Source of the DNA: Acetobacteraceae bacterium B3987
Lineage (GTDB): Bacteria; Pseudomonadota; Alphaproteobacteria; Acetobacterales; Acetobacteraceae
Reading direction: 5' to 3'
Assembly (NCBI GenBank): GCA_026537415.1
Contig: JAFNMF010000001.1
Span: 891,112-955,111 of the forward strand
DNA length: 64,000 nt
The notes under the pieces were generated by a model that worked only from the letters and a program-made list of their open reading frames with translations, was not told where the DNA came from and searched no databases. The translations under genes and the position numbers were made by a program. Positions within the stretch are counted from its first letter, which is position 1; each line of letters starts with the position of its first letter. Shown here piece by piece: positions 50,597 to 55,456 of the stretch.

Positions 50597-50715
50597 GGAC
50601 ATCTGCGGTCCTTCTCCCTGTGGTCAGGAGTGGGAAAGGACGTTAGATTACGAGGCCCGCCGGGCAAAGCCGGTCGGGGATTTTGTCCAAATATTGCAGG
50701 GAAAGTGGGCTGTTC

Positions 50716-51738
50716 ATGCGCTTCTGTCGTAAGCTGCTGGTATCAGGGCTGTGCGTGCCTCTCCTCGGTCTGGGGGGCTGCCTTCAGGTCTATAAGCCAT
50801 TTGCTCATAACCCGGGTAATCAGGCCCAGCATCTTGTAAGGGACAATATTCCCCCCGTCCGTCTGGCTGTCCCCGTGCCTGTGCCAGAGAAAGCACCGTG
50901 GCGGGAAGCAACGGCCATGTGGGCACGGGATGTGGTTGTGGCGTTGGTTGGGCAGTCTATCCCCGCTGTGGCAAAAGTGCCGGAACCGGGCGACTGGTGG
51001 GTTCGTCTTGGGGCTGTTCGGGCAGAGAATGGCGGTATCCGCCCCCGTTATGCGATTGTCGGGCCTGATGGCAAAGTAAAGGCCCGTGGGTTCGGGGCTG
51101 TGATTGATGAGGAAGGTTGGCGCAGTGCCGACCCGGCTGCCCTGAACACGGTTGCCCTCCAGATGGCTCCAGAAATTGCCCGTGAGCTGACCGAAATTCA
51201 GACCCGCATGATGATGGATGACCCGCAGAGCCTTATGCATCGTTCTGCTCGCATCTGTTTTGAGGGCGTGCAGGGTGCGCCGGGGGATGGCAACAAGTCT
51301 TTGGCAGAAGCGTTCTATATGATGCTGCCTGATGGTCATAATAGCGTGCAGACCACACGGAATGGTGCGGATTACATTGTGAAGACAGAGGTCAGCATCA
51401 AACCATCGCCAGATGCTCCTCCGCCGGGTGAGGCCCCAAAGCAGCAGGTCACCATCGTGTGGCATGTGTTGACCCCGCAGGGCGTGGAAGCCGGAGCCGC
51501 CACACAGGTGCATGACGTGGTGGCACATTCATTGGATGGCCCTTGGGCTGATGTGGCTGGTGCCGCAGCGCAGGAGGCTGCTGAGGCGGTACGGACTATC
51601 ATCACTAATTATTCTGGCCGGTCCCGCAAGGCAGCTACGGCTCAGCCGGATATTGGAGGAGAGGCGTCCAAGGAGAAGGATGGCATGAAGAAATTCATCG
51701 CCGGTCCGGATCAGGAAGGCCCGGCAGGAGCAAAATGA
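50716..51738 (+). CDS. Putative lipoprotein, unknown function
   Basis: A 340-residue protein with a lipoprotein signal: basic start MRFCRKLL, hydrophobic VSGLCVPLLGLGG and lipobox Cys22. The rest is alpha/beta with no motif I know. Features include GDWWVRLGAVRAENGGIRPRYA, KARGFGAVID and a C-terminal charged tail. It lies between the TonB-like gene and the J-domain protein and reads in the same direction. Cell-envelope attachment is inferred. Confidence 0.7.
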   Translation: MRFCRKLLVSGLCVPLLGLGGCLQVYKPFAHNPGNQAQHLVRDNIPPVRLAVPVPVPEKAPWREATAMWARDVVVALVGQSIPAVAKVPEPGDWWVRLGAVRAENGGIRPRYAIVGPDGKVKARGFGAVIDEEGWRSADPAALNTVALQMAPEIARELTEIQTRMMMDDPQSLMHRSARICFEGVQGAPGDGNKSLAEAFYMMLPDGHNSVQTTRNGADYIVKTEVSIKPSPDAPPPGEAPKQQVTIVWHVLTPQGVEAGAATQVHDVVAHSLDGPWADVAGAAAQEAAEAVRTIITNYSGRSRKAATAQPDIGGEASKEKDGMKKFIAGPDQEGPAGAK

Positions 51739-51908
51739 CAGGATAATCCGGCCTCTGTAGGCCGTGATGACATGTAACATCTTTTCCCGGTCATATGGCC
51801 AGGGAATGGTGGAGTCTTGTGCGTAGCTTTGCTGTAGCTGGTGGTTCGAATGGACAGGGTGTAGCAATCAAATTATACAAACGGGACATAAATAATAAAT
51901 GGCCCGTT

Positions 51909-54359
51909 ATGCGTTCTGTTCTTCTGAAATGTTTGCTGATTTTATGGGGCATTGTTCAGTGTCAGGTAGCTTCTGCTGAAGTCTATCATCCTGATTTTGA
52001 CTGTAGCCGGATGGATAGAACTTCACCGGGGCAAGTTCTTCTCTGTTCGGATTCTGACTCGGCCAGAAGTGAACTGGTGCTGGATCAGGCCTATTATGCT
52101 CTGAGGCACCAGAGTGCCGCTTATCTTCTGCCGCAGCTCAAGGCGAATCTGGTGCGTGATTTGGCACCGTTGCAGGCGTGTTTCTCTCCAATGGGTGTGC
52201 AGGGGGAAAGTCAGGCTGAATGTTATCAGCGGGTTGTAGCGCAGATTACGGACAGATACCGGGCACAGTTGACAGAACGGGCGCATGAGGAAGCCATCCG
52301 CCCGATTGACGATCATATCGCCTTACAGAAAAAACTTCAGGAGCTTGGCTTTCTGCCGCCTGGGGTTGTGCCAGATGGCGTGTATGGGAAAACAACCAGA
52401 CAGGCCATTCTGCGGTGGCAGGAGCAGGTTAGCCAGCCCAATCGAGATGGGTTTTTGGGGGATGATGATGCCAGAGTGCTTATGCCAGAGCTGGCCGCTA
52501 AGACCAGTCCGCAGGAGGCCCCTTCCGCTTCGACTGAGACCGTAACTCCCACAGCCACTCCGTCTGAGCCCAGCACCCCCGCTGCTGCCTCGACTGAAAT
52601 CAGAACCCCCACCGCTCCGACAGAGGCCGGAACAGGCAATGATGGGCCTGCCCCTTCCATCCTGCGGCAGGGAGGGACACCGGGTAATGCTGAGCGTCAG
52701 CCACCGGCGTCTCCCCCGCCACCATCGAATGACACATCATCGGCGGCTCCATCAGGGGAATTTGCCTCGCCTGCGGAGGTGTCTCCTCCCCGGCAGGAGG
52801 CAGCCCCGTCGTCTTCATCCTCTACGGATGATTCAACTGCTCAGCAGAATATCGATCATGAAACGACAGGGAGGCATAGCTCTCTCTTAGCTCTGCTGTT
52901 CCAGCCTATTGGGGCTATCATTCACATGTGTGGTGCCGTGCTGTCGGCATTTTGGCATGTGCTGGTGTTTGTTCTTCGGCTGCCCATAAGGCTTGTCAAT
53001 CTGATTTGGAGCTTCATTACGGCGTTGTTTAGCTGGAAAGGGCTGCTGCTCTTTATTGGCTATCTCATTATTAAGGGACTTTCTTCTGGGGAGAAGAAGA
53101 GCAAGGCAGGGGCGTCTGAATTTTCCTCAGAGGAGGAAGAGGAAGCCTATCAGCAGGTCGGATTGTTATGGAGCAGCTTTTATGAGGAAACAGGCGTCCG
53201 CCCCATAAAGACCCTCATTGAACTTCTTCTTGAGAAACGCCGGGATGAGGCTTTTGTTTTTCTAAAGACCCTGTTGGAAGAGGAAGTGGGCAAGCTGCCT
53301 GCTTCCCTGCAGGAAACATTCTCTCAAGCACGGCAGGAAAAGAGCTGGAAAGGTTTTCAGCGTTTCTCCATAGGGGTGATGGCTTTTCTGAAGGAGCATT
53401 TTCAGGACGGGAATGAAGAGGCTGCGCAAGAGCAGCGGGAAAGGGAGAAAGCCTACCGCCGGGCCAAACAATCCGGCTCCGCCCCGCCAGAGGATGAGCC
53501 TTGGCATATCGTACTGGAAGTTTCCGCAACCGCCTCTGCCGAGGAGATTACAGCCTCTTACAGGCGGCTGATGAAACAGCATCATCCAGACCGCTTCGCA
53601 CAGGCGGGAGAGGCTGCCTACGAGGCCGCCGTTGCGAAGAGCAAAAAGATCACCGAGGCTTACCGTTATGCTCGAACGCTGAAGCAGTTTTCGGAAAAAG
53701 CAGGGCAGAAGAGTCAGGGCAGCCGACAAAAGTCTGATGCAGGAACATCATCTTCAGGCTTTACCTCCAGCAAGGAGCAGGAGGCACATCAGAAGATCGG
53801 CATATTGTGGGTTAACTGGGTCGTGGAGTTGAGGATTGCGAACGGGCATGTGTTGCTAGAGCATCTCGTTGAACAGCGTCTTCAGGAAGCATTCCGTTTT
53901 TTGGTGGATCTGGTCCGCCCGATAAGTGGTGAGACAGCCCGGGCCGTGTTGGAGGAGCTGGATAAAGGGCGGTCATGGCAGGATTTCCAGCGTTGCTCCG
54001 TTCATGTGCATGGTCTGTTGCAGCAGGTGGCCAGAGCGGCAGAGGCCCGTAAACGGCGGCAGCAGGAACAGGAGCGGGCCAGAGAGCAGGCCGAGGCGCA
54101 GAAGAAGCAGGAGCAGGCCCGTCGTGACAGGCAACGTGCCAGAAACACAGCTCCCCGGGGGCGGGCATGGCATGTTGTATTGGAGGTTTCTGAAACGGCG
54201 TCTAATGAGGATGTCACCAAAGCCTATCGCCGGCTCATCAAGCAGCATCACCCGGACCGTTTTGCCCATGTCGGTGGGGAGGCCTACGAGGAAGCTGTGC
54301 GCCGAACGGCAGAAATCACGCAGGCTTATCGCTATGTGAAACAGTACCGGCAGTTCTAG
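51909..54359 (+). CDS. Envelope protein with LprI-like, peptidoglycan-binding, membrane and two J domains
   Basis: The 816-residue protein has an uncommon domain order. A signal peptide (LLKCLLILWGIVQCQVASA) is followed by an LprI/DUF1311-like Cys-rich part (about 30-125), a peptidoglycan-binding-1 motif (LQKKLQELGFLPPG then PDGVYGKTTRQAILRWQ, about 137-172), a Pro/Ser/Thr spacer (about 190-315), a hydrophobic block with two or three helices (about 330-395), then two copies of a helical unit plus a J domain. The J-domain HPD triplets are at 559-561 and 781-783, each in KQHHPDRFA. An ATG at 51795 is also open, but the signal peptide favours 51909. The J domains would sit in the cytoplasm if the hydrophobic block crosses the membrane. 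Function unknown. Confidence 0.75.
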   Translation: MRSVLLKCLLILWGIVQCQVASAEVYHPDFDCSRMDRTSPGQVLLCSDSDSARSELVLDQAYYALRHQSAAYLLPQLKANLVRDLAPLQACFSPMGVQGESQAECYQRVVAQITDRYRAQLTERAHEEAIRPIDDHIALQKKLQELGFLPPGVVPDGVYGKTTRQAILRWQEQVSQPNRDGFLGDDDARVLMPELAAKTSPQEAPSASTETVTPTATPSEPSTPAAASTEIRTPTAPTEAGTGNDGPAPSILRQGGTPGNAERQPPASPPPPSNDTSSAAPSGEFASPAEVSPPRQEAAPSSSSSTDDSTAQQNIDHETTGRHSSLLALLFQPIGAIIHMCGAVLSAFWHVLVFVLRLPIRLVNLIWSFITALFSWKGLLLFIGYLIIKGLSSGEKKSKAGASEFSSEEEEEAYQQVGLLWSSFYEETGVRPIKTLIELLLEKRRDEAFVFLKTLLEEEVGKLPASLQETFSQARQEKSWKGFQRFSIGVMAFLKEHFQDGNEEAAQEQREREKAYRRAKQSGSAPPEDEPWHIVLEVSATASAEEITASYRRLMKQHHPDRFAQAGEAAYEAAVAKSKKITEAYRYARTLKQFSEKAGQKSQGSRQKSDAGTSSSGFTSSKEQEAHQKIGILWVNWVVELRIANGHVLLEHLVEQRLQEAFRFLVDLVRPISGETARAVLEELDKGRSWQDFQRCSVHVHGLLQQVARAAEARKRRQQEQERAREQAEAQKKQEQARRDRQRARNTAPRGRAWHVVLEVSETASNEDVTKAYRRLIKQHHPDRFAHVGGEAYEEAVRRTAEITQAYRYVKQYRQF

Positions 54360-54520: not shown

Positions 54521-55456
54521 ATGAAGATCGTTGCCTGTAACAGTAATCTGCCTTTGGCTCAGGCTGTGGCTGATGAGCTTGAGATTCCTTTGTGCAAGAC
54601 ATCCATTCGTCGCTTTGCGGATGGTGAAGTGTTTGTCGAGATTCAGGAAAATGTGCGCGGGGAGGATATGTTTGTTCTCCAAAGTACCTGCACACCGACC
54701 AACGATCATCTGATGGAACTTCTCGTTGTGCTGGATGCCCTGCGGCGTGGGTCCGCACGACGTGTCACGGCTGTGATGCCTTATTTCGGCTATGCCCGAC
54801 AGGACCGTAAATCCGGCCCCCGTACGCCTATCAGTGCCAAGCTGGTGGCCAATCTTCTGACAGAAGCCGGTGCTAACCGTATCCTTACGATGGACCTGCA
54901 TGCCATGCAGATTCAGGGCTTCTTTGATATTCCTACGGATAATCTTTACGCAGCTCCGCTTTTTGTGCGGGACCTGATGACCCGTCACCCCAATCATGAG
55001 AAATTGATGATTGTCTCACCGGATGTAGGCGGTGTGGTGCGTGCCCGCCAGCTGGCCCGCCGGCTGAATGTTGATCTGGCCATCATCGATAAGCGTCGTG
55101 AACGGGCCGGTGTCTCTGAGGTTATGAATGTGATTGGTGATGTATCAGGCCGTTTCTGCGTGCTGGTGGATGACATCATCGACAGTGGGGGCTCTCTCTG
55201 CAACGCAGCCGAAGCCCTGATGAAGTACGGTGCCGCTGGTGTGGAGGCTTATGTGACGCATGGTGTGCTGACAGGCAATGCCTGCGAGCGTGTGCAGAAC
55301 AGCCCGCTTTCTATGCTGACATTGACGGATAGCATCCCCGCTACGGAGGAGCTGAAGGCGGTCTCCAACATTCGGCAGATTCCTACCGCTAATCTGCTGG
55401 GTCGGGCTATCCGGGCCGTGGCAGATGAAAGCTCGGTCTCCACTCTTTTCGATTGA
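54521..55456 (+). CDS. prs: Ribose-phosphate pyrophosphokinase
   Basis: Makes PRPP from ribose 5-phosphate and ATP. The 311-residue protein has [20 protein letters not shown] and the PRPP-binding loop [17 protein letters not shown], plus [20 protein letters not shown]. The length and motifs are standard. It follows the J-domain gene after ~160 bases and probably has its own promoter. Confidence 0.97.

Follow-up and report, generated by a model that had tools for sequence, protein, structure and literature searches.

A predicted envelope protein of bee-associated Bombella joining an LprI-like unit, a peptidoglycan-binding domain and duplicated J-domain modules

The locus considered here raises the question of what a single protein would do with a peptidoglycan-binding domain in its N-terminal half and two J domains in its C-terminal half, and whether such an arrangement is genuine at all. 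The gene (51909..54359, + strand) lies in the window, i.e., the whole stretch of 64,000 nucleotides analysed from Acetobacteraceae bacterium B3987, and its 816 codons, uninterrupted by any stop, encode a protein of 816 aa; the longest stop-free run among 300 base-shuffled versions of it was 236 codons for the whole stretch. A further in-frame ATG is present upstream at 51795, and the start at 51909 is the position matching orthologue starts in the alignment. From the N- to the C-terminus, the protein comprises (i) a signal-peptide-like start, (ii) an LprI-like unit, (iii) a peptidoglycan-binding domain, (iv) a Pro/Ser linker, (v) a hydrophobic block, and (vi) two successive modules, each made of a helical unit and a J domain, all encoded on the + strand. 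The predicted signal peptide (51909..51977, residues 1-23, ending ASA) was delimited by hydropathy, with the cleavage site placed by eye. The peptidoglycan-binding motif noticed in the first-pass annotation corresponds to a Pfam domain, namely PG_binding_1 (PF01471; 52317..52460, residues 137-184), with an E-value of 1.9e-7 and 31.6 bits vs a cut-off of 23; it is followed by a Pro/Ser/Thr-rich linker (52485..52862), whose length in the alignment depends on the species. The J domains were found by Pfam in two stretches (protein E-value 9.9e-20), namely J domain 1 (53505..53666; 41.1 bits) and J domain 2 (54168..54338; 40.9 bits), both exceeding the PF00226 cut-off of 27.8 bits and both keeping the motif KQHHPDRFA, as had been read from the letters. 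The HPD signature is present in all eight J modules from five genomes, one J1 reading HPDCFA. Ahead of each J domain stands a helical unit of about 95 aa (53118..53402 and 53757..54035, delimited by alignment), and the copies of the whole module share 40-45% identity with each other, which upholds the duplication proposed at first reading. Of note, the NCBIfam adenylosuccinate lyase models NF006502, NF006503, and NF006504 also match the J domains, far under their cut-offs, and may themselves contain a J domain.

The LprI-like part (51990..52271, residues 28-121) called for closer scrutiny. The corresponding Pfam family (PF07007) matched this part in none of nine relatives, nor in the bacterium's own genome; the likeness seen at first reading nonetheless stood on other grounds, since a nine-sequence profile aligned by hhalign with 16 LprI domains of Acetobacteraceae with a score of 40.9 and a probability of 93.5%, vs a best score of 14.2 in 60 column-shuffled controls, and four cysteines are invariant in 9/9 relatives. 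The unit would be best termed LprI-like rather than a member of the LprI family. In Salmonella, the LprI-domain protein ScwA is described as periplasmic, bearing four conserved cysteines and altering the levels of wall enzymes (PMC7933661). Proteins of this type (PF07007) share with the Bombella protein export (predicted here), the four conserved cysteines and a link to the cell wall; the Bombella protein differs in having no PF07007 match, whereas ScwA is itself free in the periplasm and the domains described for it include no J domain (PMC7933661).

Both the signal peptide and the side of the membrane on which the J domains would lie were predicted solely from hydropathy and charge. In the hydrophobic block (52863..53078), two segments rise over the hydropathy threshold in the window protein (residues 337-355 and 370-388) as well as in G002 and G005, and three in G001 and G004. 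The last segment (370-388 in the window protein) is common to all five proteins and is followed by K/R residues, which outnumber D/E after it in four of the five and equal them in G001. Summed insertion energies, computed with a per-residue scale, are positive for 10 of 11 block segments in the five proteins. Since the number of segments over threshold is two or three depending on the protein, the cytoplasm-facing orientation originally given to the J domains is a prediction; should both segments span the membrane in the proteins that have two, their J domains would end up outside, away from DnaK. In two other Acetobacteraceae (G051 and G011), relatives of the outer half, i.e., the LprI-like unit plus the peptidoglycan-binding domain, carry a single strong membrane helix, whose insertion energy contrasts with those of the block segments; these single-helix relatives (L095 and L096) suggest the same outside-to-inside order in the Bombella protein.

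On the inner side so predicted, the plan is close to that of DjlA. The E. coli DjlA begins with a short periplasmic stretch, crosses the membrane by one helix, and carries its J domain in the cytoplasm; its TerB-like domain is given no defined role, and its overproduction activates Rcs, reportedly requiring both the helix and the J domain (PMC11709261). In Caulobacter, DjlA is described as having no recognised membrane helix, with HPD mutants that do not complement (PMC10754441). Like DjlA of the E. coli type, the Bombella protein combines an anchor, a helical spacer, and a J domain at the extreme C-terminus; unlike it, its outer half is large and it carries two J modules, without a TerB match. 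Its best NCBIfam match is DjlA NF006948 (E-value 2.4e-22, 79.8 bits vs an equivalog cut-off of 162). A DjlA profile (26 sequences) outscored a DnaJ/CbpA profile (5 sequences) by 0.5-8.5 bits for 8/8 J modules; contrary to these scores, a tree grouped the modules beside DnaJ with a support of 0.908. Respective to the helical unit, a shallow alignment of 8 sequences compared by hhalign with 26 N-terminal (TerB) regions of DjlA reached a probability of 0.2%, i.e., chance level, and a TerB identity was not supported with these few sequences. The whole module compared with DjlA reached 97.3% over profile positions 57-198, the clear similarity sitting in the J part; several DjlA matches start at positions 68-88, within the end of the helical unit, and a distant link between this unit and DjlA is thus possible. 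Searched across the class sample, the helical-unit profile matched 0/288 other genomes and retrieved only its own gene, and in the phylum sample it matched one of 397 other genomes (E-value 0.00135 for one genome), judged a chance hit; in large genomes, scoring in these searches is restricted to a limited set of first-look candidates, and weak relatives may escape. The phylum match falls in an ORF antisense to one of 953 aa, which we take to be MukB-like. In sum, the plan is that of a DjlA-like protein whose outer half is of another kind, whose helical unit has no assigned family, and whose J modules are doubled in one group. The own genome also encodes a separate DjlA-like protein (L006), and dnaK adjoins dnaJ. 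Two further observations concern the chaperone complement: a 226-aa ORF of the own genome (L003:1009-1689) bears a C-terminal J domain and was not assigned to DnaJ, CbpA, or DjlA, and a second, partial match to the Hsp70 profile (L158, G000:C28:127431-127736; E-value 1.7e-13) falls in a 348-aa ORF, which we assume to be perhaps MreB.

Within the genus, the gene is solitary at a variable site, flanked on one side by a lipoprotein-like gene (50683-51738; no Pfam match), itself preceded by a TonB_C gene, and on the other by a prs-like gene (54521-55456), both assignments being a reading. Across 11 genomes, an open two-J gene occurs in G000, G001, and G004, and an open single-J gene in G002 and G005; at the aligned start, G002 reads ATA where other genomes read ATG. 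A broken copy in G003 (L043) has lost most of the LprI-like part and retains one hybrid module, switching from J1-type to J2-type sequence near the HPD. The gene is missing from the site in the five remaining genomes: in G007-G010, the aligned ends of the lipoprotein and prs genes lie 194-306 bases apart, and in G006 the site (L058:2565-5494) harbours instead genes for a hexapeptide-repeat protein and a GT61 glycosyltransferase, so the site accepts different accessory genes. Elsewhere in G006 (L044:3230-4588, - strand), a 453-aa peptidoglycan-binding protein weakly matches the outer half over residues 18-187, at 31% identity, with no J domain matched. An unrooted tree of prs plus the lipoprotein gene splits the six carriers from the five non-carriers with a support of 0.974. 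Named records place relatives of the gene at three Bombella loci, in Bombella apis, B. intestini, and B. favorum; a fourth named-genome match, from an Endozoicomonadaceae (L010), proved to be DnaJ and was set aside. A promoter-like element (TGGACA-17-TATACA; 51851..51879, + strand), spotted by eye in the upstream alignment and the window letters, occupies the same place in six genomes, about 30 bases ahead of the start in an otherwise variable region, its first hexamer reading TAGACA in two genomes and TGGATA in one, and its second TATAGA in two. A consensus promoter scan, which requires a final T, reported none at this block, whose conservation would fit a gene having its own promoter.

Selection was estimated as dN/dS by the Nei-Gojobori method, with a high dS making all values rough and with the Pro/Ser linker outside the measurement. 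Among the three two-J genomes, values were 0.03-0.05 for J1, 0.03-0.15 for J2, 0.08-0.13 for the LprI-like unit, 0.06-0.16 for the peptidoglycan-binding domain, 0.06-0.22 for the helical units including the charged linkers, and 0.18-0.28 for the hydrophobic block. The window protein vs G005 gave 0.16-0.27 where computable, dS being saturated for J2, and G005 vs G002 gave 0.09-0.21. All measured parts are under purifying selection, which is strong on the J domains. With the same domain order in five genomes, this supports the initial view of one evolved protein.

Beyond the genus, 98 genomes from other genera of the family yielded a strong match to the LprI-like unit plus the peptidoglycan-binding domain in four (G051, G011, G076, and G065), none with a Pfam J domain, and two more matches to the peptidoglycan-binding domain only; with the two halves searched apart, no protein with both was among the matches listed. 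The proteins of G051 and G011 share the outer unit with the Bombella protein at 40-42% identity and continue with their membrane helix, yet they have an additional part in front and a short basic tail (RRRR or RRR) in place of the J modules; those of G076 and G065 have different C-terminal parts. Across the class, where the best candidates (at most 8 per genome) were scored, the outer-unit profile matched 30 of 385 genomes at an E-value of 1e-6, including the own genome and G065; among the other matches listed, five cover the LprI-like part only (L129, L136, L138, L147, and L151) and the rest mainly the peptidoglycan-binding domain. When ORFs of at least 200 aa were searched for a J motif in 40 loci, short enough that the far ends of long ORFs fall outside, the canonical motif appeared in the window's own locus only, the 40 loci comprising four places twice, the window's own, and G065 again; loose matches in L102 and L104 both fall in other ORFs. 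A plasmid search returned one Methylobacterium peptidoglycan-binding protein covering 19% of the query. In the literature surveyed, from which subscription papers are mostly absent, no title or abstract start mentions this domain order, which is weak evidence of absence, and the words DnaJ, chaperone, and peptidoglycan do not occur in the main text of a Bombella comparative genomics paper (PMC9147383). What emerges is a real, conserved, lineage-limited protein of some bee-associated Bombella, in an arrangement not encountered in the sampled genomes beyond the genus. As for its origin, module 2 shares 64-68% identity with the single module of G002 and G005, and module 1 only 40-43%; the eight modules fall into three groups without a root. 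As other Acetobacteraceae have the outer half with no J domain attached, an old fusion of the outer unit with a J module, followed by duplication of the module, appears likely from the sequences, and in a simple history the fusion would have arisen in an ancestor common to the carriers, and the module would afterwards have been duplicated or, in G002 and G005, lost. The fusion of two genes, raised earlier as a weaker reading, thus holds in part, as the likely evolutionary history; as a joining artefact it is countered by the intact orthologues.

The reading we tentatively prefer, at somewhat short of an even chance, is an inner-membrane J-domain co-chaperone anchored in the envelope and bringing DnaK to the membrane. 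The N-terminal half would be exported and bind peptidoglycan, the LprI-like unit beside it, presumably disulfide-bonded, may touch wall enzymes, and the flexible linker and hydrophobic block would run on to the cytoplasm, where the two helix-plus-J modules would stimulate DnaK. DnaK activity would then be concentrated at membrane sites close to the wall, and may shift with wall or envelope stress. In favour of this reading speak the PF00226 and PF01471 matches, the HPD of all eight modules, the low dN/dS values, the four invariant cysteines, the single-helix relatives, the K/R surplus, the neighbouring dnaK and dnaJ, and the precedents of DjlA and ScwA; against it stand the two block segments seen in three of the five proteins, the mostly positive insertion energies, the lack of a PF07007 match, and the solitary position of the gene at a variable site, where five of 11 genomes lack it. 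The same domain evidence fits a static anchor, whose wall-binding half would merely hold the protein at the envelope, with the J modules doing general DnaK work and sensing nothing of the wall; the proteins L095 and L096 lend weight to this possibility, improbable on balance but a serious contender, as they keep the outer unit and membrane helix with a mere short basic tail, and the outer unit therefore requires no inner output. Against it, the dN/dS values in the LprI-like and peptidoglycan-binding parts (0.06-0.16) hint at more than loose anchoring, which anchoring could explain too. Wall sensing, as opposed to the wall as a mere anchor, is possible as a guess; in its full form, which we regard as doubtful, the outer half would bind damaged or nascent peptidoglycan and thereby shift the presentation of the two cytoplasmic J modules, such that the state of the wall would directly tune what DnaK does at the membrane, with one or two modules arising by recent duplication and loss. 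An accessory role in protection or host interaction, in which the LprI-like unit would counter attackers of the wall encountered in bees, lysozyme or others, with the J modules aiding recovery, agrees with the variable site, where across the 11 genomes the gene is open in five, broken in one and absent from five, in one case with other genes present; it seems decidedly unlikely, however, as neither the protein, the lipoprotein neighbour, nor the two genes at the G006 site matched PADLOC at an E-value of 0.001, the protein matched none of 50,697 phage records, and the ScwA null mutant is no more sensitive to lysozyme (PMC7933661). That the gene is two genes joined by a frameshift, a decaying fusion or a chance ORF, for which the broken G003 copy and the ATA of G002 might speak, is scarcely credible, as no frameshift is indicated, the same frame staying open in five genomes, three with two J domains and two with one, and as intact orthologues, purifying selection, and the shuffle control rule out a frameshift or chance ORF.

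If the co-chaperone reading is true, one polypeptide would physically link the external cell wall with cytoplasmic Hsp70 in a bee symbiont with a small genome. At one site and in one genus, the absence of the gene, one module, two modules, and a broken copy form a natural series from which it could be learned what a second J domain adds.
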